Shown one piece after another: positions 1,898 through 23,492 of a DNA stretch of 25,631 nucleotides (the first letter of the stretch is position 1; each line of letters begins with the position of its first letter). This DNA is from a virus: positions 1 through 25,631 of IMG/VR virus record IMGVR_UViG_3300012263_000014. The stretch is one strand, 5' to 3'. The position numbers and the translations under genes were made by a program. Under the pieces are notes generated by a model, which was given only the letters and a program-made list of their open reading frames with translations, did no database searches and was not told the DNA's origin.

Positions 1898-1902
1898 TTC
1901 GA

Positions 1903-1910: not shown

Positions 1911-1915
1911 TAAAC

Positions 1916-6076: not shown

Positions 6077-6086
6077 GCGTAAATCC

Positions 6087-6094
6087 TTTAAATA
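6087..6094 (+). promoter_or_regulatory. possible late promoter box with leader
   Basis: TTTAAATA, one mismatch from the T4 late core, in the short divergent gap between the genes starting at 6076 (minus) and 6115 (plus). Unlike the boxes at 705 and 1903, this one leaves a leader of about 15 bases with a TAAGG ribosome site at 6101-6105. Confidence 0.35.
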
Positions 6095-6114
6095 CAGTAG
6101 TAAGGTATTTAACT

Positions 6115-6960: not shown

Positions 6961-6971
6961 TATGCTAGTAT
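6943..6971 (+). promoter_or_regulatory. sigma70-like promoter, leaderless, with inverted repeat over the -10
   Basis: TTGACA (6943-6948), a 17-base spacer and TAGTAT (6966-6971), then 6 bases to the ATG at 6978. The start site is predicted at the ATG itself. The inverted repeat GTAATA (6957-6962) / TATTAC (6969-6974) covers the -10 element and could be an operator. The -35 lies inside the end of the previous gene. Confidence 0.55.
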
Positions 6972-6977
6972 TACATT

Positions 6978-8177: not shown

Positions 8178-8178
8178 T

Positions 8179-9204
8179 ATGGGTTTATGTAAATTAATAA
8201 TCGAAGACGAAGTAAATATAAAGTTTGAAGGATTGTCAGTAGCCGTACGGAGACAACTCTCCAACGCATTAAAATTTGAAGTACCGTATGCAAAGCATAT
8301 GCCGCAATTTAAATTGGGTCGCTGGGACGGCAAAGTCGGCTTTTTTGGCATAGGTGGCGCAGGATATCTAAGCCATTTAGACGTATTATTACCAATACTT
8401 GAAAAGAATAAGATAAACATTTCAGAGATTGTTGACAAGAGAACAACGATTGAATTAAATTTTCAAACCATTGATGCCAACTACTGGGGCACCACAGTTT
8501 GGCCAAAAGGTCATCCTGCTGAGGGCGACCCTATTATACTACGAGACTATCAAGTCGAAGCAATCAACAACTTTATACAAAATCCGCAAAGCTTGCAGCA
8601 AATTGCAACTGGCGCAGGCAAAACAATTATCACAGCAACATTATCTAAGATGTGCGAAGTGTTCGGCAGGAGTTTAATTATTGTTCCTAACAAAAGTCTA
8701 GTTGAGCAAACAGAAGAGGATTATATCAACTGTGGATTAGATGTAGGCGTTTACTTTGGAGACAGAAAAGAACTAGGTAAAACACACACAATCTGTACTT
8801 GGCAAAGTCTCAACATACTCAACAAGCGTAACAAAGAAGGACTTTTAGTTCTCAGCTTGGCAGAATTTTTAGAAGGTGTGACTACTGTTATAGTAGACGA
8901 GTGTCTTGACGGCGACACCTTAATTACTACACCAACAGGAAAGATTGCTATTAAAAACCTAAGAGTTGGAGACGCAGTAATTAATCTATGCGAAAAAACA
9001 AACACGTACAAAGAAGACGTTATTGTTAAAGTACACAAAAATCTACCCAACAGTAGCTCTGAGGATATGCTAGAGTTGGAGTTTAATAACGGTAGTATTA
9101 CTAAAGTCACAGCTAACCATAAATTTTTAACCAACAAAGGATGGGTTAGAGCAGATCTATTAACTGATGAGTTAGATGTTATTGATATAAATACATACAA
9201 CTAA
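8179..9204 (+). CDS. uvsW: UvsW helicase N-terminal piece fused to the N-half of a split intein
   Basis: Starts at the ATG one base after the previous stop (MGLCK). Residues 1-241 are the UvsW N-extein: the N-terminal DNA-binding domain (about 1-115), the RDYQ Q-motif-like entry at 122-125, Walker A TGAGKT at 144-149, motif Ia IVPNKSLVEQ, and the first half of motif II, VIVDE. At 8902 the intein N-half begins with Cys1 (CLDGDTLITT, block A) and runs 100 residues, with block B as VTANHKFL, to a stop at 9202-9204. T4 UvsW is a branch-migration and fork-regressing SF2 helicase of about 503 residues. This piece cannot work alone: motif II is cut. Trans-splicing with the product at 10113 would restore DECH. 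Confidence 0.92.
   Translation: MGLCKLIIEDEVNIKFEGLSVAVRRQLSNALKFEVPYAKHMPQFKLGRWDGKVGFFGIGGAGYLSHLDVLLPILEKNKINISEIVDKRTTIELNFQTIDANYWGTTVWPKGHPAEGDPIILRDYQVEAINNFIQNPQSLQQIATGAGKTIITATLSKMCEVFGRSLIIVPNKSLVEQTEEDYINCGLDVGVYFGDRKELGKTHTICTWQSLNILNKRNKEGLLVLSLAEFLEGVTTVIVDECLDGDTLITTPTGKIAIKNLRVGDAVINLCEKTNTYKEDVIVKVHKNLPNSSSEDMLELEFNNGSITKVTANHKFLTNKGWVRADLLTDELDVIDINTYN
9186..9193 (+). promoter_or_regulatory. late promoter box inside the intein N-half, for the endonuclease
   Basis: An exact TATAAATA in the last codons of the intein N-half. With T4 geometry transcription would start near 9199, between the box and the AAGGAG ribosome site (9204-9209) of the endonuclease. It would also express the UvsW C-half from the same transcript. 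Confidence 0.6.
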
Positions 9205-9219
9205 AGGAGAAGTATTTAT
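9187..9219 (+). promoter_or_regulatory. RNA hairpin sequestering the endonuclease start codon
   Basis: ATAAATAC (9187-9194) and GTATTTAT (9212-9219) are perfect 8-base complements. The 17-base loop holds the AAGGAG ribosome site and the 3' arm contains the AU of the AUG at 9218. The 5' arm is the late promoter itself, so late transcripts would lack it. This is the layout of the I-TevI control region in T4. Structure predicted by eye only. Confidence 0.6.
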
Positions 9220-10126
9220 GGCAAAGATATTTGATATTACTAATTTTAATAATATTCTAAAAAATTTAAACCAAACTCTATTTGCGGAAACCATATCAGT
9301 AAATGAAATAAAGTTATCTAACGGATTAACATTAACTACAGAAAGAGATATCCGTTTATGTAAAAGAAGGATAATGACCGGCCATCCTGTATGGAAGAAT
9401 ACATTTGACAGACTATATAGTATAGACGTTTCTATCAGGGTCGATGCTGAAAAAGCAGCAAGGGCAGTTACCTCAAAGATCGGCGGCGCCGCGTGTCAAC
9501 TAATACACGGTGATAAGATAAAAGAAAATCTAAATACAGGCATTCCTTGGAATAAAGGGACAAAAGGCAATTATCCTTATTCTACAACAGTCACAGCAGA
9601 AACTAAGCAAAAAATTAGTCAAGCTAACATTGGTTCAAAAAACGGCATGTATGGAACAGTTATGTCAGCAGAAGATAAACTACATCGTAGTAATATCATG
9701 AAAGAAAAAATATTAAACGGTACTTTTACTCCTAACTCAAATAATAGAAATACGCATTGGGATGCATTTTATAAAAATAAAAAATATAGAAGTTCTTGGG
9801 AAGCACTATACCAATACTTCGATAAAGATGCAGAATACGAAACTATTAGAATTCCATATGTCTATAATAATAAAGAACATATTTATATTGTTGACTTTGT
9901 AAATCATGATATAAAGACATTAATAGAAGTAAAACCAGAAGAACTAATGTATGACGAAAAAACTAAAGCAAAGATTAATGCTGCAAAAGAATGGTGTACA
10001 ACTAACGGATATACTGTTATAATAGCAAATAAAGAATATTTTATTAACAAAAAGTTTCCTACTAACTTAGACAACTTTGATGAAAATACACAAAATAAAA
10101 TTAGGAAATTATATGAAATTAGTTAA
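9218..10126 (+). CDS. free-standing homing endonuclease (NUMOD3 plus PD-(D/E)xK-like domain)
   Basis: A 302-residue protein. Residues about 105-160 carry NUMOD3-type DNA-binding modules (GIPWNKGTKG, then AETKQKISQANIGSKNGMYG at 127-146), the hallmark of phage homing endonucleases. Residues 185-245 look like a PD-(D/E)xK-like nuclease core: SSWEALYQYF, then IVDF with D226, and LIEVKPEE with E237 and K239. It likely cuts intein-less uvsW at the DE/CH codons and so spreads the cassette. AAGGAG stands 8 bases before the ATG. Its last 14 bases overlap the start of the uvsW C-piece. It reads intact. Confidence 0.88.
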   Translation: MAKIFDITNFNNILKNLNQTLFAETISVNEIKLSNGLTLTTERDIRLCKRRIMTGHPVWKNTFDRLYSIDVSIRVDAEKAARAVTSKIGGAACQLIHGDKIKENLNTGIPWNKGTKGNYPYSTTVTAETKQKISQANIGSKNGMYGTVMSAEDKLHRSNIMKEKILNGTFTPNSNNRNTHWDAFYKNKKYRSSWEALYQYFDKDAEYETIRIPYVYNNKEHIYIVDFVNHDIKTLIEVKPEELMYDEKTKAKINAAKEWCTTNGYTVIIANKEYFINKKFPTNLDNFDENTQNKIRKLYEIS

Positions 10127-10952
10127 AAAGACAGTTATAAACAAACCAGACAAGGTCTATAACTTACATGTTAAGAACGATCACAACTACATTGCTAATG
10201 ATGCTGTAGTGGCAAACTGTCACCAAGCCAAGGCAGATGTACTAAAGAATATATTAACACAAAACTTAAAGAATGCGCCAATCCGCTGGGGTCTAACAGG
10301 AACTGTTCCTAAAGAAGCCTTTGAATTTCAAAGCATACTTGCAAGTCTTGGTCCTGTCGTAGGCAACGTAACAGCAAAAGAACTACAGGACAAGGGCGTA
10401 TTGTCAAACTGTCATGTTAATATATGTCAGTTGATGGATGTCAAAGCATTTACAAATTATCAAGAAGAACTCAAGTATCTTGTGTCAGACGAAGCACGCC
10501 TTGAATATCTTGGTAAGTTAATGATTAAGATAAAAAGTTCAGGAAATACATTAATCCTAGTTGATCGAATTGCAGCTGGACAAAAACTACAAGAACTAAT
10601 TCCGGGCTCTATCTTTATTAACGGCGCGGTTAAAACAAAGAACAGAAAAGAAACTTACGATAAAGTGCAAGATGCTACGGATATGGTAATTATTGCAACA
10701 TATGGTGTTGCAGCAGTTGGTATTAATATTCCGAGAATCTTTAATTTGGTGCTTTTTGAACCCGGCAAGAGTTTTGTCAGAGTCATTCAAAGTATCGGCA
10801 GGGGCGTAAGAAAAGCAAAGGACAAAGACTTTGTCCAAATATGGGATATCACCAGCACATGTAAGTTTGCCAAACGGCACCTTGCTGCTCGCAAGAAATT
10901 TTACGCCGAAGCTCAATATCCTTATACTATAGAAAAAATAGATTGGAATTAA
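10113..10952 (+). CDS. uvsW: split intein C-half fused to the UvsW helicase C-terminal piece
   Basis: The ATG at 10113 (MKLVKK) is chosen because it starts the 35-residue intein C-half and has AGGA about 7 bases upstream. A longer in-frame start at 10077 falls inside the endonuclease gene and adds nothing intein-like. After the terminal Asn at 10215-10217 the C-extein begins with CHQAK and runs 244 residues: motif III LTGT (RWGLTGTVPK), motif IV (NTLILVDR), motif V (VIIATYGVAAVGIN) and motif VI QSIGRGVRKAKD. These are all the helicase motifs missing from the N-piece. It overlaps the endonuclease by 14 bases. Confidence 0.92.
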   Translation: MKLVKKTVINKPDKVYNLHVKNDHNYIANDAVVANCHQAKADVLKNILTQNLKNAPIRWGLTGTVPKEAFEFQSILASLGPVVGNVTAKELQDKGVLSNCHVNICQLMDVKAFTNYQEELKYLVSDEARLEYLGKLMIKIKSSGNTLILVDRIAAGQKLQELIPGSIFINGAVKTKNRKETYDKVQDATDMVIIATYGVAAVGINIPRIFNLVLFEPGKSFVRVIQSIGRGVRKAKDKDFVQIWDITSTCKFAKRHLAARKKFYAEAQYPYTIEKIDWN

Positions 10953-10959
10953 ATTAAAA

Positions 10960-11466
10960 ATGAGAATACTAACACTGGAAAACGAAACGTTTATACTTAA
11001 TCAATTGCCAGAATCGGTTGACGAAGCATTACGATTTGCAGTGCTTGATAACAGTAATCCAGCAGATCCGGATTTCTTTTTCAATCCATTGATATTTCTA
11101 GAAAGTTTCAACAGCCCTGCTATTGTACTAGAAATAAACGGCAACGAGATCACAATGCCGCTAGACTGGTGTCTAGCAGTAGGGTGCAGCGAAGCGGGCA
11201 GCGACTTAGAGGTATTACCTTTAACCAGCTTGAACGATAGGGGATTTGAAGCATTTGTATTCAATCCCCTAACTGGAACCCATCCACAATACGCAAAGGT
11301 AGAGATAATAAATTTCTACAATGACGTCAAGTGGTATTTTCCAAAAATGAGAAATGGCCAATTGCTAGCAGTGCCTCTCAAGGAAGAACCAAATACAAAT
11401 TGCGCGTTTTTTGTAAAAGACATAAGCCGTCAGAGTGAAATTATCGACTTCGGCAAATTATTATAA
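10960..11466 (+). CDS. unknown protein downstream of uvsW
   Basis: A 168-residue acidic protein, 7 bases after uvsW, probably in its transcript. It has mixed strand/helix character, with MPLDWCLAVGCSEAGSD in the middle and a C-terminal half ending in IIDFGKLL. No catalytic motif, signal peptide or membrane segment is visible. The position suggests a role in replication or its control, but this is only association. Confidence 0.7.
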   Translation: MRILTLENETFILNQLPESVDEALRFAVLDNSNPADPDFFFNPLIFLESFNSPAIVLEINGNEITMPLDWCLAVGCSEAGSDLEVLPLTSLNDRGFEAFVFNPLTGTHPQYAKVEIINFYNDVKWYFPKMRNGQLLAVPLKEEPNTNCAFFVKDISRQSEIIDFGKLL

Positions 11467-11516
11467 AACGAATAAACTAAATTATTAACAAAAAGAATAG
11501 GCATAAAGGCATAAAC

Positions 11517-12233
11517 ATGGAAAATTACAAGAATGAATTACTAGCACTAACCAAAGAAGAGTTAGTTGCATATATAGACATTACTGCTTCTATGGCAGAA
11601 AAATTTGAATCTAAAGTAGCAGGAGCAAAGCACTTAACAGAAGTTAACGGACCAGACGCTGAACTGCCCTGCGGTAGATATGTTGAAATAAAGACTCAGT
11701 GCTATTCAGGTAATTACGAGTTACGAGGTCGCGGCAAATACGGATCCGCTACGATGGATATTTACAAGAAAAAGTTACAGAAGAACGAACTTACCATTGT
11801 AAGCGGATTTGATCAAACTACTGGTGATGTGTTGTATCGCTTTTCTTTTGACTTTACTGCAATTTCTAATAGATATCTTGCAAATGTAGAAGACAGAGCA
11901 TCCAGGGGACTAGGCCCAACAAATTACGATACTTATCCAGCGCATTACATGCATCACAAATCTTTTAAAATTGATTTTGTTGCAGATCCATTAATACTAT
12001 TTTTAAGCTGTCATAAATTTACCAACAAGTTTTATAAGTTCTTACTTTACAATGCAATAACTGGAAAAGTTGACACTACTTATCAACCACAATTGAGAAG
12101 TCCTAAAAATACTACATCTGATTTGTGGCATTCACAGGCACAAGCATTGTGGGCTAAAAATGCATCAGCAGTTGATAATATTGAACTATTTAAAGAAATA
12201 CAAGATCACTTTAAAAAATGTAAAGAAGCATAA
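11517..12233 (+). CDS. unknown protein with a possible nuclease-like core
   Basis: A 238-residue protein with an AAAGG ribosome site 7 bases before the ATG. After an N-terminal helix (to about residue 40) the segment GPDAEL, then CGRYVEIKTQ (about residues 45-60) resembles a PD-(D/E)xK active site (D, then ExK), followed by a basic glycine-rich patch RGRGKYGSATMDIYKKK. That could be a restriction-like nuclease or decay enzyme, but the match is two short motifs. Nothing else identifies it. The stop overlaps the next ATG as TAATG. Confidence 0.65.
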   Translation: MENYKNELLALTKEELVAYIDITASMAEKFESKVAGAKHLTEVNGPDAELPCGRYVEIKTQCYSGNYELRGRGKYGSATMDIYKKKLQKNELTIVSGFDQTTGDVLYRFSFDFTAISNRYLANVEDRASRGLGPTNYDTYPAHYMHHKSFKIDFVADPLILFLSCHKFTNKFYKFLLYNAITGKVDTTYQPQLRSPKNTTSDLWHSQAQALWAKNASAVDNIELFKEIQDHFKKCKEA

Positions 12234-12493
12234 TGGGAAACTTATTAGAAGGTGAACAATTAGTTTACGAAAGACAAGGCAAAGTAGTATACGCTAGATA
12301 CTTTGGCAGACCCGATATACCACGTTGGGTAATAAGCGGGGATGCAGACGGATTTACTTATTCTGAATTTATAACAATGATGGATATGGCCAACAATGAC
12401 GAAATATTTAAAAAAGAGTTTGACAAATTAATAACTCTGTATTACCTTAAAAGAGAAGAGAAAAAAAAATGCCAGCACCCAAGCTTCCTGTAA
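12233..12493 (+). CDS. small unknown protein
   Basis: An 86-residue protein with an acidic middle and a lysine-rich end. The start overlaps the previous stop (TAATG). The 3' end overlaps the next gene by 25 bases across an A9 tract (12461-12469). A -1 slip on that tract would put ribosomes in the frame of the gp62-like protein and join the two. No family recognised. Confidence 0.65.
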   Translation: MGNLLEGEQLVYERQGKVVYARYFGRPDIPRWVISGDADGFTYSEFITMMDMANNDEIFKKEFDKLITLYYLKREEKKKCQHPSFL

Positions 12494-12930
12494 AAGACCT
12501 ACTAGCAGCAATTGATCTAAACGGAAAAGACGTCTGGGACGAGCTAGACAAAGACCAGCGCAAGCAAGTAAGGTTCTGGTTGCTAAATCGCTACGTCAGT
12601 AGTATAATAAAAGCTAGTAGAATACAAACTGAACTTGCAGTCTTTAAAACCAACGAGTACTATAATAAAAACTGGGAAGTGTTAGGAGCAAGACATCCTA
12701 AGCTACAATGGCAATTATTGTGCATGGCTGGCAACACAGGTGAGATCCAATATCATCAATGGATTGGACTCAAGCAGCACAAGGGTGTGAACAACAAAGC
12801 GGTAAACTTATTATTAGAAATTTACCCTAACAAAAAGATAGATGAGGTCGAATTACTTGTTAAAATATCTACCAAAGCAGAAATTAAAGCACTTGCTAGA
12901 GAACATGGATATGACAAAGTCAACATCTAA
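12469..12930 (+). CDS. probable small clamp-loader subunit, gp62-like
   Basis: A 153-residue protein. In T4, gp62 pairs with the gp44 ATPase to load the gp45 clamp on DNA. The call is tentative: the marine gp62 proteins are short, helical and poorly conserved. They share an N-terminal FxLNRxxS-type helix (here FWLLNRYVSS, about residues 36-45), then a helical stretch with QWLLC-like pairs and a C-terminal block ending in aliphatic and lysine-rich helices (LLVKISTKAEIKALAREHGYD). Genes 44 and 45 are not in the window. If it is not gp62 it is an unknown helical protein. Confidence 0.5.
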   Translation: MPAPKLPVKDLLAAIDLNGKDVWDELDKDQRKQVRFWLLNRYVSSIIKASRIQTELAVFKTNEYYNKNWEVLGARHPKLQWQLLCMAGNTGEIQYHQWIGLKQHKGVNNKAVNLLLEIYPNKKIDEVELLVKISTKAEIKALAREHGYDKVNI

Positions 12931-13603
12931 GAAATTTGTTTGCGAATATTGCAAAAAGAGTTATTCAAAAGAAAGTACTCTTGTTGTTCACATGTGCGAG
13001 CCAAAACGTAGATGGTTGCAAAAAGATGAAAAACGTGTGAAGCTAGGACTGTATACGTTCCAGCGATTCTATAGATTAAGCGCAGGAAACAAGACCGAAA
13101 AGTCGTATGAAGAGTTTATGAAGTCTACATTTTACAAAGCATTTGTAAAGTTTGGAAGTTTTGTAAACAACGTCAAGCCGTTGTATCCAGAGAAGTATGT
13201 TGATTATGTTGTAACCAGTGGAGTAAAGCTTGACCATTGGTGCAGAGACGAAATGTACGAAGCTTACGCTACCGACCTTATAATGAAGGAAGGTGTTGAA
13301 ACTGCACTAGAGCGCTCGGTAAACACAATGGTAGCATGGGCTGAATCCAACCAGTCTGTGTGGAATCATTATTTTTTACATGTTTCAACAAATAGAGCAG
13401 TTTACGATATAAAAGACGGTAAGGTATCACCGTGGCTATTACTAAATTGTAACTCTGGAAAGTCGCTGCTGGCCAAGTTCAGCGACGAACAGCTGGGGCT
13501 GGTTTTCCATATTTTAAATCCTAGTCACTGGGCTATAAGATTTAAAAGACAGCCCACTGACGTAGCACTTGTAAAGTCTATTGCAAAAGAAGGTAAACTA
13601 TGA
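12905..13603 (+). CDS. C2H2-type zinc-finger protein of unknown function
   Basis: About 232 residues from the ATG at 12905; the ATG at 12911 is nearly as good, and the frame stays open further upstream inside the gp62-like gene. CEYCKKSYSKESTLVVHMC near residues 13-31 is a zinc finger (CxxC, then HxC), followed by an RRW basic patch, so nucleic-acid binding is likely. The remaining helical domain (about 45-230) has no motif I know. Its partner gene is the polymerase III-like protein 10 bases downstream. I recall this pair as adjacent conserved genes in cyanophages. Confidence 0.72.
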   Translation: MDMTKSTSKKFVCEYCKKSYSKESTLVVHMCEPKRRWLQKDEKRVKLGLYTFQRFYRLSAGNKTEKSYEEFMKSTFYKAFVKFGSFVNNVKPLYPEKYVDYVVTSGVKLDHWCRDEMYEAYATDLIMKEGVETALERSVNTMVAWAESNQSVWNHYFLHVSTNRAVYDIKDGKVSPWLLLNCNSGKSLLAKFSDEQLGLVFHILNPSHWAIRFKRQPTDVALVKSIAKEGKL

Positions 13604-13613
13604 AAGAATCTAA

Positions 13614-14171
13614 ATGCCAGATATTGACATAGACTTTGCAAACAGAGATTTAATTTTGTCCAAGATACAGCATCATGTTGCAAAACTTGAAAATGGCAAG
13701 AAGCACAATACTGGGGTATATGCTACTTTGATTCCGCACAATCCTATTGACAATCTTTCTACGATTGATTACAAGACAGCCGAATACAGAAAATATTTCA
13801 AGTTAGATTTCTTAAACGTAAGCATATACAAAGATGTTCGCAACAATGCTCACATGGACGAATTGGTTAAAAAAGAACCTATGTGGGATTTACTGCAATA
13901 TAAAGAGTTTAGCGATACAGTATTTCATGTATCGGGACATCATGATATTTTACAAAAGCTTAAACCGGATTCTATTGCAAAATTAGCAGCATGCCTTGCA
14001 ATTATCCGTCCTGCAAAGCGACACTTAGTAGAAAAAGATTGGGATGATATATTTGAGGAAGTGTGGATTAAGCCAACTACCGATCAATATTTCTTTAAGA
14101 AAGCGCATGCGTTTTCTTATGCAATGGCAGTAATGGTTCATATGAACCTAATTTGCGAAGCGTCTATTTAA
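13614..14171 (+). CDS. mini-protein resembling the DNA polymerase III alpha palm
   Basis: A 185-residue protein that appears to be a reduced DnaE-like polypeptide. MPDIDIDF at its very start matches the DnaE motif bearing two catalytic aspartates, FKLDFLNVSI near residue 63 matches the third (KxDFLGL), LQKLKPDSIAKLAACLAIIRPA near 113-134 matches the fingers segment (LxRLxPxxFEDxIALxALxRPG), and KKAHAFSYAMAVMV near 162-175 matches the F-KSHAxAYA-type block. The PHP domain, the GRGSAAGS glycine loop and the beta-binding domain are absent. It is about one sixth of a full DnaE. It may be a regulator or an RNA/DNA-binding remnant rather than a polymerase. Confidence 0.75.
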   Translation: MPDIDIDFANRDLILSKIQHHVAKLENGKKHNTGVYATLIPHNPIDNLSTIDYKTAEYRKYFKLDFLNVSIYKDVRNNAHMDELVKKEPMWDLLQYKEFSDTVFHVSGHHDILQKLKPDSIAKLAACLAIIRPAKRHLVEKDWDDIFEEVWIKPTTDQYFFKKAHAFSYAMAVMVHMNLICEASI

Positions 14172-14532
14172 TTTTCTTAACAAGTTGGACGCTTTTTCTC
14201 TTTACTCGTTTTAGTGATAAATTATTGAGATTCACGCAAGGCCCAACAACAACTTTTACATCCTTGGAATTCATTGACATCATACAATAACGTACAGGAT
14301 CAATCTCTCTCCTCATAAAGGTGCTAACTGGTATGAGTCTATTTGATTCCCACCACCATGTTTCTGCAATGTCCAACAGCAGACGTTTGTCTTCGTTGGT
14401 CTTTAATCCAGTGTACACAAACATTGTTGTCACATACTGATCTTGATTTGCAATCACTCCAACATACTCGTTGCCGCCATATGCGACAACGCTCACGTAT
14501 GGAAATTGTTCTTCTATTTCTTTTAATAACAT
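14164..14532 (-). CDS. conserved unknown protein of marine T4-like phages
   Basis: A 122-residue protein with a beta-rich N-terminal part containing VVAYGGNEYVGVIANQDQ, a tryptophan-rich block ETWWWESNRLIPV, and a lysine-rich C-terminus. I recall very similar unnamed proteins in marine T4-like phage genomes. The basic tail suggests nucleic-acid binding. It is convergent with the polymerase III-like gene and overlaps it by 8 bases. No ribosome site is clear before the ATG at 14532. Confidence 0.7.
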   Translation of the reverse strand: MLLKEIEEQFPYVSVVAYGGNEYVGVIANQDQYVTTMFVYTGLKTNEDKRLLLDIAETWWWESNRLIPVSTFMRREIDPVRYCMMSMNSKDVKVVVGPCVNLNNLSLKRVKRKSVQLVKKIK

Positions 14533-14535
14533 TAC

Positions 14536-14543
14536 GATAAATA
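14536..14543 (+). promoter_or_regulatory. probable late promoter box with leader
   Basis: GATAAATA, one base from the late core, 24 bases before the ATG at 14568. TAAGGA at 14553-14558 is a ribosome site with a 9-base spacing. A TATAAT at 14547-14552 lacks a matching -35. Late expression fits the virion-type product. Confidence 0.45.
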
Positions 14544-14567
14544 CACTATAATTAAGGATCCTACTAT

Positions 14568-15353
14568 ATGCAGCTAATACCTAGATATTTAGTCGATGAG
14601 AGAACAATTGTTATATCTAACGATGCAGGATTCCCAGTGGAGTATAGACCGGTGTACAGCAGACAGTTAAAAGTATATAGAGGTATTGATAATACCATAC
14701 AATTTAGACTATTAAACGCAGATCAAAAGCCTGTGGAAATCACGTCCGATATGGTATTTGTTGTTTTTGACGAAGCCAACAATATGATAATCAACAAGCT
14801 TGTAACAGTCACAGATGATTCATCTGTGCCAACTAGGGGAATGTTTGAAGTAACAATTACAGACAATGAATTACTTAATGTAAAACAACAATACCTCAAA
14901 TACAATGTTTACAAAAGCGACAATGGCGTAAGCACTGTGACGTATTCTAGCCGCAGTTTTGAAAGTGCAGGAATAATATATCTTGACGGTAACGCCTATC
15001 CAGGCCCAAAATCCAGCACAACAATCACTGACTTTTATGCAGTATCAGACTTCTGGGTTGCTGGCAGCGACGATGTCGACAAGATTGGTGCACAACCAGG
15101 ACTAAACGGAAACGAAGCATTGCACACAGTTGCAGTTTACACCAGCGGATATGTTGGCAATGTAGAAATACAAGCAACTCTCGACAATCAAATCACAGGC
15201 ATCAACAACTGGAGTACAGTTGGTACACTGACGTTTGATGGTACAGAAACTGAGGCAGTCCCCTTCAACTTCAACGGTGTTGTAAGTTTTGTTAGATTCA
15301 AGATGGACAATGATCCAGCAAGCACAGTAACCAAGATTCTTATTAGAAACTAA
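14568..15353 (+). CDS. probable virion structural protein, baseplate or appendage type
   Basis: A 261-residue, almost entirely beta-strand protein with no charged active-site motif. Residues about 32-125 (LKVYRGIDNTIQFRLLNADQ and following strands) resemble the N-terminal beta-sandwich of baseplate proteins such as BppU. The rest, from about 150 on (FWVAGSDDVD, VAVYTSGYVGNVEIQATLD), is a second beta-sandwich. It would be built into the virion late in infection, which fits the late promoter. It could be a baseplate or a tail-appendage subunit. Its stop is followed immediately by the primase promoter. Confidence 0.6.
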   Translation: MQLIPRYLVDERTIVISNDAGFPVEYRPVYSRQLKVYRGIDNTIQFRLLNADQKPVEITSDMVFVVFDEANNMIINKLVTVTDDSSVPTRGMFEVTITDNELLNVKQQYLKYNVYKSDNGVSTVTYSSRSFESAGIIYLDGNAYPGPKSSTTITDFYAVSDFWVAGSDDVDKIGAQPGLNGNEALHTVAVYTSGYVGNVEIQATLDNQITGINNWSTVGTLTFDGTETEAVPFNFNGVVSFVRFKMDNDPASTVTKILIRN

Positions 15354-15382
15354 TTGACATTTAATGGTGTTGCTGTTATTAT
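15354..15382 (+). promoter_or_regulatory. sigma70-like promoter, leaderless, for primase
   Basis: TTGACA (15354-15359), 17 bases, TATTAT (15377-15382), then 6 bases to the ATG at 15389. The start site is predicted at the ATG. An overlapping TATAAT (15380-15385) has a 20-base spacing and would start inside the gene. Confidence 0.55.
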
Positions 15383-15388
15383 AATGAC

Positions 15389-16375
15389 ATGAGCATCGTA
15401 TCAGAAACATTATTGACGTTCTTGCCGAGCAAGCGTAAACAAACGCCCAGTGGCTGGCTGTCGTTTAACGGAGTGTGTTGTGTTCACAACGGAGAATCTG
15501 CAGACACTCGAACTCGAGGGGGTGTTATACAAGAAGGCGATGTAGTAAGCTATCATTGCTTCAACTGTGGATATAAAGCCAGTTGGCAACCTGGCAGACA
15601 TATTTCGTACAAGTTAAAGAAGCTGTTTCAATGGCTAGGCGCGCCAGACGATATTATTTCCAAGTTGAGTTTGGAAGTCCTAAAGATTAATGACGGCTTT
15701 GAGTCAGTTGAACGACTAATTGAATTGCCTACCTTTGCCAGTGTGCCACTGCCCGATGATGCAATAGTGATAACAGAAGACCCTTGTGCAACAGGCAAGC
15801 TAGTTGAAGTTATGGATTATATGTCCAGCAGAAAACTTTGGCTAGATGACGGATATAATTACTACTGGTCGCCACAACTGAAATACCGAGATAGATTGTT
15901 TATTCCTTTTTATTACGAAAATAGAATTGTTGGCTGGTCAGGAAGGACTGTTAATTCTAACAAAAAGCCTAAGTATTTGACTGACTCTCAACCAGGGTAT
16001 CTTTTCAACTTGGACAAACAAACTTCAGATAAAATATTTTGTATTGTAGTCGAGGGTCCACTGGACGCTATTCCAATTGACGGTGTGGCATTGTTAAGAG
16101 CAGAGATCAACGAGCAGCAAGTGATGCTGCTGAAGAGACTAAACAAAGATATAATACTCTTGCCAGACAGAGATTATTCTGGTAAAAGATTAGTTGAAGA
16201 AGCAATTGAGTACGGCTGGCAAGTGAGTATGCCCGACTGGGACGACGACATCAAAGACACAGGAGAAGCTGTGCAACGATACGGTCAGGTGTATACCTTA
16301 TTCAGTATTGCTGCCGCAGCAGAAAGTTCTCCTCTGAAGATTAGATTGAAAGCAAAAAAATGGTTCAAAAAATAA
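15389..16375 (+). CDS. 61: DNA primase, gp61-like
   Basis: A 328-residue protein; T4 gp61 has 342. It makes short RNA primers for lagging-strand synthesis and works with the gp41 helicase, whose gene lies 2 kb downstream. The N-terminal zinc ribbon uses CCVH (30-33) and CFNC (57-60). The TOPRIM core carries VVEGPLDAIPID near residue 218 and LLPDRDYSGKR near 262, with acidic residues that bind Mg. The C-terminus is lysine-rich. The promoter leaves no leader. Confidence 0.9.
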   Translation: MSIVSETLLTFLPSKRKQTPSGWLSFNGVCCVHNGESADTRTRGGVIQEGDVVSYHCFNCGYKASWQPGRHISYKLKKLFQWLGAPDDIISKLSLEVLKINDGFESVERLIELPTFASVPLPDDAIVITEDPCATGKLVEVMDYMSSRKLWLDDGYNYYWSPQLKYRDRLFIPFYYENRIVGWSGRTVNSNKKPKYLTDSQPGYLFNLDKQTSDKIFCIVVEGPLDAIPIDGVALLRAEINEQQVMLLKRLNKDIILLPDRDYSGKRLVEEAIEYGWQVSMPDWDDDIKDTGEAVQRYGQVYTLFSIAAAAESSPLKIRLKAKKWFKK

Positions 16376-16485
16376 TTAATATATTTACGATAATCATGTC
16401 TCCATTTATATGGATTAGAAATGAGATAAAGTACCGTAAGAAGATGAAGGAACTTCGCAAAAAAGATCCGTTCATTTACAAATGA
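16360..16485 (+). CDS. 41-residue basic protein with a hydrophobic N-terminus
   Basis: Starts at an ATG within the last codons of primase and ends with TGA overlapping the next ATG (16482). Residues 5-19 are hydrophobic (IINIFTIIMSPFIWI) and the rest is basic, ending in ELRKKDPFIYK. That C-terminal block is one I recall in several marine T4-like phages as a small conserved protein. The hydrophobic segment could lie in or against the host membrane. An internal ATG at 16396 would make a 29-residue form. The tight overlaps on both sides support it being translated. Confidence 0.6.
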   Translation: MVQKIINIFTIIMSPFIWIRNEIKYRKKMKELRKKDPFIYK

Positions 16486-17942
16486 TTTGGGGTATTAGTG
16501 CAAACAGTCACGATGCTGCGCTGGCAGTATTTGACCAAAATATTAACTTGAAGTTTGCAAGTCAGAGTGAAAGATTTAGCCGAGTAAAGAATGATCCGCA
16601 TTTGCACACAGATTTGATCGATTATGCAATGCAGTTTGGCAAACCCGAACATGTAGTCTGGTATGAAAATCCATACAAGAAAACAATGCGGCAACTTCTA
16701 GCAGGCCAGGGCTGGAACGCAAAAGAAAACAACGTCAAGGAGTATTTGTGTCAGTTTGAAATTAAGCCAGCTAAAATTAGCTATGTAGACCATCACTGTA
16801 GTCACGCCGCAGCTGGTTTTAACACAAGCGGATTCGTTGACGCCACTGTGGTGTGCATTGACAGTGTTGGCGAGTTTGAAACTCTAACTGTTTGGAGTGC
16901 AACACATCACGGAATGAAGAAAGTATACAGTCAACGATACCCGCATAGCGTGGGTATGTGGTATAGTGCAATGACGCAGCGTGTTGGATTAAAGCCACAA
17001 GAAGATGAATACATACTCATGGGCATGGCAGCATACGGCGACGGCAACAGGCTTTATCATGACGTAAAACAAGACTTTGTTGAAATTGGCAACAAGCCTA
17101 TGGTCAAGTTCAATAGAAATCTGCATCGTGGCTGCAAGGATTGGCGCCCTGATTTAACCAGCGAACAGGATTACTTTGACATTGCAGCCGCAACGCAACT
17201 TGTGTATGAAGATATATTACGACACATACTTGGCACATTTGCTAACAAGCTGCCCAGCAATAATCTAGTGTTAATGGGAGGATGTGCGTTAAATTGCAGC
17301 GCCAACTCTATTGCGTATGAATACTTTAAAAATGTCTGGGTTATGCCTAATCCAGGCGACAGCGGCAGTGCAATTGGTGCAGTTCTTGCCCATTACAAGA
17401 AAAAAATCAAATGGCCCGGCCCATACCTTGGATATAACATAGAAGGAACATACCCTGTTAACAAAATTCTTTTGGAGCTCGTTCGATCGGGCATATGCGG
17501 CGTTGCTAATGGTCGTAGTGAGTTTGGCCCTCGTGCTTTGGGCAACCGAAGTCTTTTCGCAGACCCACGAGGCGCCGACATCAAAGACAGAGTCAACGAC
17601 ATTAAATTACGTCAACGGTTTAGACCCTTTGCTCCAGTTATACTTGAGGAACACGCCAACGACTTTTTTACCGGACCCATGGGCCCATATATGCAATTCA
17701 CAGCACGTTGCAGATATCCTGAAACTTACCCTGCAATTGTCCACGGAGACGGCACCTCAAGAGTTCAAACTGTTGGAAAGAGAGATAGCCCTGATCTTCA
17801 TGGGTTGCTGGAAAGATGGTACGAGTTAACAGGCTGCCCAATGCTGCTCAACACCAGTCTTAATGTAAAAGGACAACCCATCGTTAACACAAGGTTAGAC
17901 GCAATAGAATTTGAAAAGCAATACAATGTAAAAGTGTATTGA
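16482..17942 (+). CDS. carbamoyltransferase, NodU/CmcH family
   Basis: A 486-residue protein with both domains of the family. The N-terminal Kae1-like domain makes carbamoyl-adenylate: SHDAALAVF near residues 9-17, DHHCSHAAAGF near 103-113, DEYILMGMAAYGD near 172-184, LMGGCALNCSAN near 261-272. The C-terminal domain contains EFGPRALGNRSLFADPR near 347-363 and LLNTSLNVKGQPIV near 459-472. The enzyme transfers a carbamoyl group to a sugar hydroxyl or similar. It is shorter than bacterial NodU (about 560). Phage copies may decorate surface glycans or nucleotides. It starts with ATGA. Confidence 0.93.
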   Translation: MIWGISANSHDAALAVFDQNINLKFASQSERFSRVKNDPHLHTDLIDYAMQFGKPEHVVWYENPYKKTMRQLLAGQGWNAKENNVKEYLCQFEIKPAKISYVDHHCSHAAAGFNTSGFVDATVVCIDSVGEFETLTVWSATHHGMKKVYSQRYPHSVGMWYSAMTQRVGLKPQEDEYILMGMAAYGDGNRLYHDVKQDFVEIGNKPMVKFNRNLHRGCKDWRPDLTSEQDYFDIAAATQLVYEDILRHILGTFANKLPSNNLVLMGGCALNCSANSIAYEYFKNVWVMPNPGDSGSAIGAVLAHYKKKIKWPGPYLGYNIEGTYPVNKILLELVRSGICGVANGRSEFGPRALGNRSLFADPRGADIKDRVNDIKLRQRFRPFAPVILEEHANDFFTGPMGPYMQFTARCRYPETYPAIVHGDGTSRVQTVGKRDSPDLHGLLERWYELTGCPMLLNTSLNVKGQPIVNTRLDAIEFEKQYNVKVY

Positions 17943-17967
17943 CTTTTACAACTAATTAAAGTATAAT
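17939..17967 (+). promoter_or_regulatory. sigma70-like promoter, leaderless
   Basis: TTGACT (17939-17944), 17 bases, TATAAT (17962-17967), then 7 bases to the ATG at 17975. The start site should lie at or one base before the ATG. No ribosome site is possible downstream of it. The -35 overlaps the carbamoyltransferase stop. Confidence 0.62.
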
Positions 17968-17974
17968 AACTATT

Positions 17975-18292
17975 ATGACAAACATTAAAAATATCACCGA
18001 AGACATGGTAAAGGATGCACTACGAGAAGTGTATGATCCTGAAATTGCAGGAATTAGCGTTCAGGATTTAGGATTAATTTATGAGATAAACATCACCGGC
18101 GATCATGTACACGTTAAGCACACATTGACCAGTATGATGTGTCCGTTTGCTGAAGAAATTTGCGAGGATATATACGGTGCAGTAATGGCAATCAATGGTG
18201 TCGAAACTGTCAACAGAGAATTGGTTTTTCAGCCTGCATTTTCCGTGGAAATGGTTCCAGAAGAAACAAGAATGATTATGGGATGGTACTAA
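17975..18292 (+). CDS. MIP18/SufT-type (DUF59) Fe-S assembly protein
   Basis: A 105-residue protein with the family pattern: VYDPEI near residues 19-24, VQDLGLIYEI near 29-38, TSMMCPFAEEI near 52-62 with the conserved Cys, and the C-terminal PAFSVEMVPEETRMIMGW, equivalent to PxWSxxxMSExARxxLG. The family helps insert or repair Fe-S clusters (SufT, PaaD, CIA2). Phage copies are uncommon. Its own strong promoter, immediately before gp41, suggests expression with the replication genes. Its target, host or phage, is unknown. Confidence 0.88.
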   Translation: MTNIKNITEDMVKDALREVYDPEIAGISVQDLGLIYEINITGDHVHVKHTLTSMMCPFAEEICEDIYGAVMAINGVETVNRELVFQPAFSVEMVPEETRMIMGWY

Positions 18293-18314
18293 GCGATTAA
18301 CAGGGTAATATAGT

Positions 18315-18965
18315 ATGAGCACACGACAAAATACAGACTATGGGTTCGACATACAAAAAGTCTACTTAGAAATGATGATGAGCGACGCTGCAACATTTGT
18401 ACGTTGCCAGAGTGTGTTTGATGCTGAATCATTTGATAGAAGATTAAAGCCAGCGGCAGAGTTTCTAAACAACTATGTTGTTGATCACAATGCATTGCCT
18501 ACATTCGACATGATTAACGCTGCTACACATACCCAGCTTAAGGATCCGGGCATGTTGCAAGATTCTCATTACGATTGGCTGTTAACTGAATTTGAAACAT
18601 TCTCTCGGCACAAAGCACTTGAAGCTGCAATTTTACAGAGTGCCGACTTGTTGGAAAAGGGCGAGTATGGCCCAGTTGAAGAACTGGTTAAGAAGGCTGT
18701 ACAAATTGGATTGCAACGAGATCTTGGTACTGACTATTGGGAAGACCCCCGTGCAAGATTAGAAGCAATCAAAGCAAACAATGGACAGGTCAGCACAGGC
18801 TGGAAAAATTTAGATAAGAAATTATTTGGCGGATTTAATCGCGGCGAACTAAATATATTTGCCGGCGGATGTGTAACTGCCGAAACTGAGGTAAAAATAA
18901 TTGAACTATACAACATTGACAGCTTTATTAAAACAGGAATACTTAACAGCCAGGGGGTCGTTTAA
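18315..18965 (+). CDS. 41: gp41 helicase N-terminal piece fused to a short intein N-half
   Basis: The first of three gene pieces for the DnaB-like replicative helicase (T4 gp41, 475 residues, hexameric 5'-3' helicase that binds gp61). Residues 1-185 are the N-extein: the helical N-terminal domain (1-140), the linker, and STGWKNLDKKLFGGFNRGEL, ending at FAGG, the first half of the P-loop. At 18870 Cys1 opens an intein N-half of only 31 residues (CVTAETEV...) that stops at 18963-18965. CAGGG lies 9 bases before the ATG. Not functional alone: the P-loop is cut. Confidence 0.9.
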   Translation: MSTRQNTDYGFDIQKVYLEMMMSDAATFVRCQSVFDAESFDRRLKPAAEFLNNYVVDHNALPTFDMINAATHTQLKDPGMLQDSHYDWLLTEFETFSRHKALEAAILQSADLLEKGEYGPVEELVKKAVQIGLQRDLGTDYWEDPRARLEAIKANNGQVSTGWKNLDKKLFGGFNRGELNIFAGGCVTAETEVKIIELYNIDSFIKTGILNSQGVV

Positions 18966-21151
18966 TGGAAAGAAACTTCTTCCTGCGGTTGTACTCGATA
19001 GTATATTAGCCCACACTGCCTTTTTAAATTATAACGCTACTATTAATACTCGAGTTTCGTATATAATCACCAACACGTCTACTCAGCTATTGTGCAGGAA
19101 TTGCAATACGCCGTTGGAGATAAAGGCAGCAATTTATAATCCACCGAAGTATTGTTCTAGCAAATGCAATGCTACTAGCAACGAAACAAAGAACTTGAAG
19201 GCGTCCACCAGCGAAAGAAAGTACGGTTATAAAAACGTATTTCAGAGTCCCGAAGTAAAACAAAAGATATCATCAACAAACATAAAAAAGTTCGGCTCTG
19301 CTAATCCTGCAAAGTCACAGGTAGTAAAAGACAAGATATCTAAAAAGGCCAAAGTAAATTCTCCTCAACGACTACAAAAGGCACAGGAAACTGTTCGGCA
19401 AAAATACGGAGTCGACCACATATCTCAATTAGATTTGGTCAAAGACAAGAAGAAACAAACTTGTATCGACCGTTATGGCACTGAGTACTACTTTAGTACA
19501 AATGCATGTAAATTTAAATCTAAACAAACAATGATGAGACTATACGGGGTAGAAAACGCATCACATAGTCCTTATTTTATTGACAAGATACGTAGTACCA
19601 AGTTTAATAAATATAGGGATAGTAGTTACAATAACAGAGACCAAGCACTGTCTACTATGATAAAGACTTACGGCGATGTTTCTGCCCGTCAGCATTGGAG
19701 TACACTGGCTACTCGAATTTTGCTTTCTCCTGATGAGTTAGTAGAATACGCCGCTGGCAAAACAATAAACTATATGGCGACCTCGTTGGAAGTAGCCCCT
19801 ACAACAGTGTATCTTTATTTAAAAAAGTACAATATTTCTAACTTCGACTCTCGTAATAACCAGTACGAAGACCTAATAAGTTCATTCCTAGATACATATG
19901 GAATTGAGTATAAAACAAATACAAGAACTATTATACCACCTCTGGAACTTGATTTTTATATTCCAGAACACAATTTGTGTATAGAGTGCAATGGTATCTT
20001 TTGGCACAGCGAATTAATGGGCAAGGACCGAGCATACCATATGAACAAAACAACACGATGTAACGACATAGGATTACAGTTGTGGCATCTATGGGATTAT
20101 CAAATAGATCGTAATCCTGACTTGATAAAAAGTATGCTAACACATAAATTACTCAAACAACCTGATCGAATAGGAGCCCGTAGTTGCTCGGTAGTTAACC
20201 TAACAGCACAGGAATATCGATCTTTTCTAGACGAAAATCATATTCAGCAGTCTATTAATTCTAAGATAAAGTTAGGATTATTATACAACAACGAAGTACT
20301 AGCAGTAATGGGGCTTGGTGCATCGAGATTTGAAAAAGACACTTGGGAACTACATCGGTTTTCAGTTAAAAAGAATTATCACGTTCCAGGAGCTCCTAGC
20401 AAACTGTTCAACAACTTTTTGAAAAATCAACATAATTGTCATAAAATAGTATCATACGCATCGCGTGACTTTAGCAACGGCAACATGTATCAACAGCTGG
20501 GATTTAAGTTTGTAGACCATACTCCTCCAGGATACTTTTATTTTAAATCTCGGGTGGTATTTAATAGGGTAGCATTTCAGAAACATAAATTAAAGGATAA
20601 GCTAGAGCACTTTGACGCCAGCCTGTCAGAATGGCAAAACATGATTAATAATGGATACAACCGATTTTGGAACACAGGGAACATAAAATATGAATTTACT
20701 AGATAAGAGAATTGAGTGGTTATCCAAGTGGTACTCGGTAGACAAGTTACTACAATTATCAGAAGACAAGTTGGTACTCCTATACAACAATAGTCAGCCA
20801 AAAAAAGTCCGTATTGGATCACTGGAAGGTGTTCCGACCAGCAGTTATCGGATCAACAGCCCCGATGGGTATGTTAACGCACATGCATGGCGAAACAAGG
20901 GAACCAAAGAGTGTGTTACTCTGACCACAGACGCTGGAAATTCTATAACTGCTAGCACAGATCATTTTTTTGAAATGTCCGACGGCAAGTGGAAATATGC
21001 AGACTGTTTGTTTCCAGGACAGTGCATTAGCACAGAATCCGGCATCGAAACAGTAACCAGCGTAGTAGCAGCAGGCAAGCACACAGTATACGACTTCTAC
21101 ATCAATCATGAAAATCACAGATACTATACCAATGGAATAAGCAGTCATAAC
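18870..21151 (+). mobile_element. atypical split-intein/endonuclease cassette in gp41 (site GG/SGSGKS, P-loop)
   Basis: Intein N-half 18870-18962 (31 residues), endonuclease gene 18901-20706, intein C-half 20690-21151 (154 residues, ending ISSHN). The C-half carries block B (NSITASTDHFFEM) as well as blocks F and G, so the break lies between blocks A and B rather than before block F. Splicing joins FAGG to SGSGKS and restores the Walker A motif. The endonuclease overlaps both intein halves. Confidence 0.88.
18901..20706 (+). CDS. large homing endonuclease, Vsr-like EDxHD type
   Basis: A protein of up to 601 residues. The start is uncertain: TTG at 18901 or 18916, the frame being closed upstream at 18898. 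It overlaps the intein N-half in another frame. An ATG at 18965 with good AGGGGG spacing is in the wrong frame and closes after 14 codons. Order: a zinc knuckle (CRNC, then CSSKC, about 65-90), four or five repeats of a KYG.N..QS..V+.K motif (about 105-245), a Vsr-like nuclease domain with LDFYIPEHNLCIECNGIFWHSE (about 349-370) and QLWHLWDY (about 391-398), and a GNAT-like C-terminal region (about 420-580). It likely cuts intein-less gp41. Confidence 0.85.
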   Translation: MNYTTLTALLKQEYLTARGSFNGKKLLPAVVLDSILAHTAFLNYNATINTRVSYIITNTSTQLLCRNCNTPLEIKAAIYNPPKYCSSKCNATSNETKNLKASTSERKYGYKNVFQSPEVKQKISSTNIKKFGSANPAKSQVVKDKISKKAKVNSPQRLQKAQETVRQKYGVDHISQLDLVKDKKKQTCIDRYGTEYYFSTNACKFKSKQTMMRLYGVENASHSPYFIDKIRSTKFNKYRDSSYNNRDQALSTMIKTYGDVSARQHWSTLATRILLSPDELVEYAAGKTINYMATSLEVAPTTVYLYLKKYNISNFDSRNNQYEDLISSFLDTYGIEYKTNTRTIIPPLELDFYIPEHNLCIECNGIFWHSELMGKDRAYHMNKTTRCNDIGLQLWHLWDYQIDRNPDLIKSMLTHKLLKQPDRIGARSCSVVNLTAQEYRSFLDENHIQQSINSKIKLGLLYNNEVLAVMGLGASRFEKDTWELHRFSVKKNYHVPGAPSKLFNNFLKNQHNCHKIVSYASRDFSNGNMYQQLGFKFVDHTPPGYFYFKSRVVFNRVAFQKHKLKDKLEHFDASLSEWQNMINNGYNRFWNTGNIKYEFTR

Positions 21152-21892
21152 TCCGGTTCTGGAAAAAGCTTGTTCCTTGCCAACCTAGGAGTTAACTGGA
21201 GTCTGATAGGAATGAACGTATTATACCTTACGTTCGAACTCAGTGAGAATCTAGTAAGTATGCGCATCGATAGCATGATAACAGGTATCCCCAGCAGAGA
21301 TGTATTTAAGACCATCGACGACGTTGAGATGAAAGTTAAGATGATTGGCAAGAAAGCAGGTGCTTTCCAAGTCAAGTATATGCCGTCTGGTAAGAATGCA
21401 AATGACATTCGAAGCTATATTAAAGAATACGAAATTAAGACAGGTCGCAAAATTGATGTTCTGCTGATCGACTACTTGGATCTTATGACACCGTTGAGTA
21501 TTAAGATTTCTCCGGAAAACTTGTTTGTCAAAGACAAGTATGTAAGTGAAGAACTTCGCAACCTTGCAATGGAATTACAGACAATCTTTGTTACTGCATC
21601 ACAGTTGAACCGTTGTTTAAAATTAGATACACTAGTTGAAGCCAACGGCAAAAAAATACAAATCAAAGATGTGCAAGTAGGCGACTATTTAACGTCAAAC
21701 CAAGGTCCGGTACGGGTATACGAAGTGTTGCCTATTTCTAAACAGCATGTCTACAAGATTAAAACCAAATCCGGCAAAGAAATTACATGCTCGGCAAAAC
21801 ATAAGTTTCCAACAACTAACGGAATTAGTACACTAGAATCAGGCCTAAAAGTAGGAGATAAATTGCAGAGTTTGCGTAGCTGTGATAAATAG
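20690..21892 (+). CDS. 41: gp41 middle piece flanked by halves of two different inteins
   Basis: A 400-residue protein in three parts. Residues 1-154 are the C-half of the P-loop intein. Residues 155-308 are the gp41 middle extein, from SGSGKSLFLANLG through Walker B (VLLIDYLDL) to TASQLNR. Residues 309-400 are the N-half of a second intein (CLKLDTLV at the start, block B SAKHKFPTTNG, then a stop). The second intein closely resembles the gp41-8 split intein and sits at the same SQLNR site. To yield helicase this chain must splice at both ends. It overlaps the endonuclease by 17 bases and has AGGGA 9 bases upstream. Confidence 0.9.
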   Translation: MNLLDKRIEWLSKWYSVDKLLQLSEDKLVLLYNNSQPKKVRIGSLEGVPTSSYRINSPDGYVNAHAWRNKGTKECVTLTTDAGNSITASTDHFFEMSDGKWKYADCLFPGQCISTESGIETVTSVVAAGKHTVYDFYINHENHRYYTNGISSHNSGSGKSLFLANLGVNWSLIGMNVLYLTFELSENLVSMRIDSMITGIPSRDVFKTIDDVEMKVKMIGKKAGAFQVKYMPSGKNANDIRSYIKEYEIKTGRKIDVLLIDYLDLMTPLSIKISPENLFVKDKYVSEELRNLAMELQTIFVTASQLNRCLKLDTLVEANGKKIQIKDVQVGDYLTSNQGPVRVYEVLPISKQHVYKIKTKSGKEITCSAKHKFPTTNGISTLESGLKVGDKLQSLRSCDK

Positions 21893-21951
21893 ATGTATGC
21901 AAAATATATATAATAACACCAAAATTAGCATTAACTAGTTACAAAATTGAA

Positions 21952-21972
21952 ATAATTAATAGAATTAATTAT
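21952..21972 (+). promoter_or_regulatory. hairpin over the broken endonuclease start
   Basis: ATAATTAAT (21952-21960) and ATTAATTAT (21964-21972) are perfect complements with the loop AGA. The 3' arm includes the first two bases of the ATG at 21971. It is similar in idea to the hairpin at 9187-9219 but AT-only and with a 3-base loop, so it may be chance. Confidence 0.3.
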
Positions 21973-22986
21973 GACAAAAAGATCAAACATGGCTGATACA
22001 AAAAATTAGACACTATGTCACAAAGTTGTATCCATTAGAAATATTGCAAGCAAACTATGTACAGATACGCAGCCTTGGCAGAGACTCATCGAGCTTGCGA
22101 TCGTTTATCATTCGATACGGCGATAAACTAGGCAGCAGTTTATTTGCAATCAAGAATAGCAAGACTATGATGGATCGGCAGAGACTAGAAGACCTTCATG
22201 GCGTAAAGAAAACAGACGCACTAATTCGTAGTCGTGGCGCATCATTAGAGAATTATATAGCGCGTCACGGAGCCGTCGAAGGCACACGTCGGTGGTCAGC
22301 ATATCTAAATAAGCGCACGGCATCGTACGCAAAAAAAAGATACGACGGACACACATATCCGTCGTATACTTTAGAATATTATACCAAACTACATGGTATA
22401 GACAAAGGCACAGCGTTACAAGGTCTCGCTGGCATATTATATTGAACAATACGGGCAAATACTAGGTCCGATAAAATGCAGAGAGTGCAAGGATCATTCG
22501 AGTTTGGCCTACTTTACTAATAAATATGGATCTACATTAGGTGAAGAAAAATACAGGGCGCGTTGCCTGCAGGCCGCTACCGGATCATCGAATATTACTT
22601 ACTCAAGAATGAGCCAAGAATTATTTGATGAGCTAAGGAAGGTAATAGTGGATCTACATTATTACGGACCAAACGAAATAACCTGGGGCGTATCACAAAA
22701 ATATAATCTTCCGCAACGGGTAATTTGCCCAGACTTGTTTTATAAAGGAAAAATTATCGAGTTTAACGGAGATGTCTTTCATGCTAACCCAGCACTATAT
22801 GAGGCTACGGATTGCCCTCATCCGTATAGAAAGAAATTATCTGCAAGAGAGATATGGAGCGCCGACGCGAGCCGTTACGAATATTATAAAAAAAGAGAAT
22901 ATAAATTATTGGTCGTTTGGGAAAATGACTACAAACATAATCAAAAGGAGATAATAGATCAATGCCAGAAATTTTTAATGACCTAA
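21971..22986 (+). pseudogene. homing endonuclease pseudogene (two frameshifts)
   Basis: The region codes in three segments. The ATG at 21971 reads MTKRSNMADTKN and stops. Coding sense continues in the frame of 22005-22445, whose TTG at 22026 is not a natural start, and shifts again near 22405-22425 into the frame that ends at 22986. The first break is at an A6 run near 22000; one base fewer would restore it. The product has YGxxxG-type repeats (YIARHG, YYTKLHG, YYIEQYG, FTNKYG), a nuclease domain with CPDLFYKGKIIEFNGDVFH and LLVVWENDY, and overlaps the gp41 C-piece by 25 bases. The 3' frame alone (22420-22986) retains the nuclease core, but no start was found for it except TTG at 22504. Confidence 0.75.
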
Positions 22987-23492
22987 CAGAGATAGATGAC
23001 GAAATAGTGTCAATTGAATACATCGGTGAAGAAGATACAATTGATATCAACACAGACGGTAACAGATTGTTTTATGCTAACAACATCTTAACACACAATT
23101 CTTCAGTCGAAGAGGTTGAATTTGATCACTCGCACATATCCGGCGGACTTAGTAAGATCAACACAGCAGATAATGTGATTGGTATCTTTACAAGCAGGGC
23201 TATGCGAGAACGTGGCAGGTATCAATTGCAGTTAATGAAGACAAGAAGTTCAAGTGGTATTAACTCTAAAATTGATCTAGGGTTCGACGTTGACAGCTTG
23301 CGCATTGTCGATTGCGAAGAAGATGATGAAGATTCGTCACAAGGACAAACTACCGGAAGCAGCATTGTTGCAAATCTCAAACGCAATAATTCAAATAATC
23401 CGTCTGACGGATCAGCTGCTCCTAAAATAAAAGCAGATACAGACAGTACCAAGTTGCGATCTTTCCTAAGTGGGTTAGGTCAGGACGAGTAA
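22962..23492 (+). CDS. 41: gp41-8-like intein C-half fused to the gp41 helicase C-terminal piece
   Basis: A 176-residue protein. Residues 1-46 are the intein C-half: MPEIFNDLTEIDDEI, block F YIGEEDTIDIN, and block G ending LTHN. Residues 47-176 are the C-extein from SSVEEVEFDHSHISGG, through the DnaB-like arginine-finger region (IGIFTSRAMRERGRYQLQLMKTRSS), to an acidic-then-serine-rich tail. The three exteins sum to 469 residues, close to the 475 of T4 gp41. AAAGGAG is 11 bases upstream, a long spacing. The 3' end overlaps the minus-strand gene by 13 bases. Confidence 0.92.
   Translation: MPEIFNDLTEIDDEIVSIEYIGEEDTIDINTDGNRLFYANNILTHNSSVEEVEFDHSHISGGLSKINTADNVIGIFTSRAMRERGRYQLQLMKTRSSSGINSKIDLGFDVDSLRIVDCEEDDEDSSQGQTTGSSIVANLKRNNSNNPSDGSAAPKIKADTDSTKLRSFLSGLGQDE

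Follow-up and report, generated by a model that had tools for sequence, protein, structure and literature searches.

Three split inteins very likely interrupt the helicase genes uvsW and gene 41 of a T4-like phage

Both core DNA helicase genes of a T4-like phage, uvsW and gene 41, are cut into separate open reading frames (ORFs) in the 25,631-base virus record IMGVR_UViG_3300012263_000014, and we consider it very likely that three independently acquired, mobile split inteins break these genes and that the pieces are rejoined by protein trans-splicing. The whole of this record is the window of our analysis; its layout was read from an ORF list with translations, and all pieces of the two genes and their inserts lie on the + strand. 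uvsW has a single fracture (DE|CH); gene 41 has two, at GG|SGSGKS (site a) and SQLNR|SSVEE (site b). A first-pass annotation of the window had described three fractured helicase genes. The three junctions sit where it placed them, with the ORF translations split at the joins, while the fractured genes number two. The argument is carried by observed features, namely the gene layout, exact inserts, conserved motifs, selection, lateral movement, and the absence of another copy of either gene from the sequence at hand. The arrangement itself is of a known kind; its accumulation in one phage is unusual.

At the uvsW site, the N-extein (8179-8901; start ATG 8179, with GTG 8152 possible) ends in VIVDE and continues into a 100-residue intein N-half (IntN, 8902-9204; TIGR01445, 2.1e-7) that runs from Cys1 to a TANH block B and a stop at 9202-9204. 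A Shine-Dalgarno AAGGAG then precedes a homing endonuclease gene (9218-10126) of 302 residues with NUMOD3 and a TnsA-like PD-(D/E)XK domain (phrog_22417, 4.4e-47), whose frame is open in near relatives. The 35-residue intein C-half (IntC, 10113-10217; TIGR01443, 9.1e-6) has a start that overlaps the endonuclease stop, and ends in VVAN; the C-extein (10218-10952) begins CHQAK, with Cys at +1. Compared with the empty allele, the insert is exactly 8902-10217, the split is canonical, and the break falls in the Walker B motif. The residue following DE is Val in 75 of the 75 intein-free uvsW alleles read (DE|VH) and Cys in alleles with the intein, which means that the nucleophile came with the element. 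In a related contig (L012:2742-3098), the endonuclease at this site is down to 118 residues and has lost its nuclease domain, with the split intein kept.

Site a of gene 41 is built differently. The N-extein (18315-18869; phrog_19) ends in NIFAGG, and the insert, 18870-21151 by comparison with the empty allele, breaks the P-loop. Its IntN (18870-18965) has 31 residues, the split falling about 31 residues in rather than at the usual endonuclease position, and block B thus lies in the C-half. This IntC (20690-21151) has 154 residues and ends in SSHN; its closest sequence match in the PDB is VidaL (6vgv, 4.5e-14), and its AlphaFold model (mean predicted local distance difference test score 74.5) also returns VidaL in Foldseek (E 1.2e-6). 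With 31 and 154 residues and a Hint-fold IntC, site a is an atypically split intein. The middle extein (21152-21613; DnaB_C) follows, 154 residues from SGSGKS to SQLNR. The endonuclease gene (18901-20706, 601 residues) is Hef-like, with DUF7487, a putative Vsr-like nuclease and a GNAT-like C-terminal part. It matches the homing endonuclease family phrog_3339 at 1e-116, the Pfam Vsr match (E 9.4e-4) falling short of the cut-off, and its frame is open in near relatives. No ATG lies near the 5' end of this frame; the likely start is TTG 18901, which lies among the IntN codons and is preceded, 8 bases away, by GAGGT. By eye, another large endonuclease with a GNAT-like C-terminal part (L170:17475-19055) is free-standing amid tail genes.

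Site b returns to a canonical split, with a 92-residue IntN (21614-21892, stop 21890-21892) whose nearest PDB entry is gp41-1 (6qaz, E 2.7e-13), gp41-1 being the one available for comparison and gp41-8 being absent from the searched collections. The insert is 21614-23099 against the empty allele, and its join, QLNR|S, is at what we take to be the same NR|S position as the gp41-8 insertion. The 46-residue IntC (22962-23099) has its own ATG with AAGGAG upstream and ends in LTHN, and the C-extein (23100-23492) begins SSVEE, with Ser at +1. An endonuclease gene had been annotated at each site; the one at uvsW and the one at site a are intact, while that at site b (21897-22986; phrog_22677, 3.1e-23) is a pseudogene: compared with an open copy of 376 codons in L004, it has lost 11, 1 and 29 bp in three deletions and is frameshifted into two frames. 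The site-b endonuclease is also open in L012 (380 codons). The +1 nucleophile at this site varies, being Ser, Cys and Thr among the window, L012 and L010.

Several features unite the three sites. At each, the N-piece ends in an IntN, the C-piece begins with an IntC, and the ATG of the C-piece overlaps the 3' end of the endonuclease frame. The endonucleases belong to three different families. All three carry the motifs of a class 1 intein: Cys1, a His in block B (which at site a lies in the C-half) and a terminal Asn, as annotated, and also Cys or Ser at +1 (here C, S and S). The exteins match ResIII/DEAD, Helicase_C, DnaB_C, phrog_16 and phrog_19, and their joins (DECH, GGSGSGKS, SQLNRSSVEE) are intact as first described, aligning without gaps to uninterrupted relatives. 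On paper, splicing gives a UvsW of 494 residues, or about 485 if translation begins at the likelier ATG, and a gp41 of 469. The original reading, fractured genes with three distinct split inteins, is supported. Chance is ruled out because intein profiles match (TIGR01445 at 4.7e-11 as well as 2.1e-7, and TIGR01443) and numerous other contigs show this arrangement again. Group I introns also house homing endonucleases, and the pieces might be joined at the RNA level instead, by such an intron or by translational bypass; the intein-coding halves are nevertheless conserved and in frame with the exteins, which makes this extremely improbable. A search of the window for known RNAs, group I introns included, gave no Rfam match.

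We propose that a free-standing homing endonuclease gene interrupts each intein and that the pieces would be translated separately, the C-pieces initiating at the ATG that overlaps the end of the endonuclease frame. Matched intein halves would then associate and splice in trans to yield one UvsW and one gp41, the latter through two reactions via a middle piece in the order IntC-extein-IntN. The endonucleases would cut empty sites and thereby spread the elements into intein-free phages. At site b, the endonuclease is dead and the intein kept, and the intein may persist because lost splicing would inactivate gp41. Pieces of an enzyme can also work as a non-covalent complex that never splices, for which the split NrdA of phage Aeh1 is a precedent (reviewed in PMC2988022). 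The breaks in our phage fall inside a P-loop and a Walker B motif, and the catalytic intein residues, which such a complex would not need, are conserved, so we regard non-covalent assembly as very improbable indeed.

Uninterrupted alleles are common among relatives. Among loci fetched with the two helicases, an automated test found 77 uninterrupted at this uvsW site, 74 at gp41 site a and 81 at site b, with a few inteins being caught only by direct intein search. One contig (L015/L092) is empty at all three sites and is 93-94% identical in both proteins, and therefore defines the insert boundaries. The split layout recurs at lower identity in L004, L006, L084-L090 and L093. Compared with L004, synonymous divergence (dS) of intein and endonuclease sequences is 0.08-0.23, whereas dS reaches saturation in the N- and middle exteins and 2.4 in the C-extein; compared with L084 and L093, dS is 0.37-0.48 in the uvsW intein and saturated in the extein. 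In L093, the DNA match covers the insert plus 15-20 bp only. Element divergence well below that of the host gene, together with empty alleles, is what distinguishes mobile elements, and with divergence this far below that of the exteins, the elements must have moved between phages recently. As judged by dS against these phages, they are younger than the genes that host them.

Within these elements, the intein halves and both intact endonucleases evolve under purifying selection. The ratio of nonsynonymous to synonymous divergence (dN/dS; rough Nei-Gojobori values) is 0.08-0.16 in most comparisons of intein halves, and the two endonucleases that are intact fall within 0.11-0.24. These values bear on the possibility that the fractured genes are inactive remnants, with the helicases supplied by the host or by another phage gene. 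The pseudogene at site b would befit decay, and yet in many contigs purifying selection acts on the intein and extein halves and their frames stay open, and S16 and PM2, both cultured phages, manage with a fractured uvsW. A continuous copy of either gene, which the first-pass annotation had named as the finding that would favor remnants, was sought in the window, its sister records and a 151-kb contig of the same population; none turned up in the roughly 176 kb that these comprise once overlaps are removed, genome completeness not being established. We therefore consider the remnant explanation very unlikely. The sources are metagenomic contigs, and an assembly chimera might also be suspected. 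We give this almost no credence: records of different metagenome numbers, 99.94-99.99% identical, carry the same layout, as do more distant contigs. Record G001 equals window positions 1-17534 save for one base, and the 151-kb contig, G008, overlaps G001 over 15.8 kb with two mismatches and the first 640 bases of the window with none.

Some observations weigh against trans-splicing mobile inteins as the explanation. A continuous uvsW or gene 41 could lie in any part of the genome that is missing here. The uvsW intein retains the terminal Asn that was annotated but has no penultimate His, ending in Ala-Asn rather than His-Asn. The IntN of site a is short, at 31 codons, and shares part of its sequence with the endonuclease frame; its comparison with L006, over those 31 codons, gives a dN/dS of 0.70, and all dN/dS values are rough. 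Translation, trans-splicing, endonuclease cutting and essentiality are things that we infer.

The fractures described above are part of a larger set in the same phage population. The terminase gene terL is fractured twice (LLY|CDEF and REYG|CEFL), with N-halves of 39 and 31 residues and an endonuclease-like gene between the pieces at both sites (L170:8272-12693); both inteins are atypically split, and in relatives both sites are empty, with alignments running across the joins. Gene 46 (SbcC-like) is fractured in its P-loop (GTGK|TTIIN; L258:1804-5120, G008) by an atypically split intein with a 37-residue N-half, and a 368-residue ORF with a Vsr-like end lies at this site. The population thus carries at least six split inteins in four core genes (uvsW, 41, terL and 46), two of which are in three pieces. 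The portal gene (gp20; L257:13006-15903) has an intein that is uninterrupted and includes an HNH-like part, and a DNA polymerase B (PolB) fragment at a contig end opens with an intein C-half, HN|SVYFS, in the DTD|S motif (L262:10118-11107). An intein-tail profile run on these records found no further inteins beyond those named. In 35 of 35 sequences read (L170, L178-L200 and others), the intein at terL site 1 has Gln in place of the terminal Asn (SHQ|C). At terL site 2, where the window's phage is split, L190:1389-3170 seemingly has an uninterrupted mini-intein.

So many pairs in one cell raise the question of cross-reaction, and the first-pass annotation's view that the three pairs of the window must not cross-react is reasonable. 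It receives partial support from low identity (about 17-30% between the three pairs across the longer alignable stretches) and from the opposite charge patterns of the two canonical pairs (IntN -4 and IntC +3 at uvsW; IntN +7 and IntC -11 at gp41 site b), identity and charge being the whole basis on which cross-site pairing was judged. The order IntC-extein-IntN is the layout used for making cyclic proteins. Cross-reaction would thus be expected to cyclise the middle pieces of gp41 and TerL, and selection for orthogonality is therefore expected. We lean toward the broader hypothesis that the proteins driving replication, recombination and packaging in this phage (gp41, UvsW, gp46 and TerL) are each assembled by trans-splicing, in no fewer than six natural reactions that are mutually orthogonal. 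Two of the products would be three-piece proteins whose middle pieces would circularise on cross-reaction, and orthogonality would be under direct selection. gp41-1 and gp41-8 belong to a set of mutually orthogonal split inteins (PMC7090010).

The closest cultured parallels are the Straboviridae phages S16, STP4-a and PM2, whose uvsW is fractured and annotated as helicase pieces flanking a hypothetical protein. They share with the window the DE|CH site, an IntN at 56-58% identity, a NUMOD3-type endonuclease and an IntC start overlapping the endonuclease end; the comparison covers the uvsW fracture alone, and PHROGs 16259 and 9690 are the matching helicase families. For the site-b intein of gp41, annotated phages offered only weak relatives (Shigella phage ESh36, 38%, and Prevotella Lak phages, 33%), that of ESh36 belonging to a helicase gene whose fracture is at another position. 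gp41-1 resembles site b in IntN sequence, with the window's endonuclease being degenerate. Among uncultured relatives, G004/L012 has one uninterrupted and one split intein in uvsW as well as the split gp41 site b, and in a diverged contig, G010, uvsW is split at two sites and terL is fractured. The layout of G010 also differs in that the IntN in the uvsW P-loop (L264, about G010:38087) runs in frame into a Vsr-like endonuclease.

Dassa et al. (2009, NAR 37:2560; cited in PMC6892783 and PMC13014065) reportedly described phage DNA in which a split intein interrupts a conserved enzyme gene and a Vsr-like endonuclease gene stands free between the halves. The phage studied here differs from such cases in having at least six pairs in one population, two three-piece genes, atypical and canonical splits in one gene, and one dead endonuclease. 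The atypically split VidaL, AceL-TerL, GOS-TerL and PolB16 have a short IntN and a long IntC, as at gp41 site a. The VidaL IntN has 16 residues against 31 at site a, where the endonuclease frame opens before the IntN codons end. Atypically split N-halves range from 15 to 37 residues (PMC13014065). A related jumbo phage, Pseudomonas phage MIJ3, has a split PolB intein with an endonuclease (PMC6892783), and our phage has an IntC at PolB DTD|S. Matches to MIJ3 uvsW and gp41 end at the fracture sites, with no intein match there. Among the papers available to the search, nothing joined split inteins with uvsW, and there was no match for T4Lh.

This phage gives a measure of the number of split inteins that a single phage can gather and tolerate, and offers natural three-piece proteins that would require two trans-splicing reactions. 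Six co-occurring natural pairs together with intein-free relatives provide material for orthogonality tests and protein ligation, and stages of an element's life cycle can be seen within one lineage, from an empty site through an active-looking element to a dead or shrunken endonuclease and an uninterrupted intein. Fractured uvsW genes in the cultured phages S16 and PM2 make the idea testable now.

Elsewhere in the window, a short DnaE-like ORF with the motif PDIDIDF lies at 13614-14171; a truncated Pol III alpha-like protein has been reported in the Rak2-like phage CBB (PMC5259590). By eye, 717-6960 and 16482-18292 hold genes resembling those for methyltransferases, glycosyltransferases and a carbamoyltransferase, as well as a DUF59/MIP18-like gene next to gene 41.

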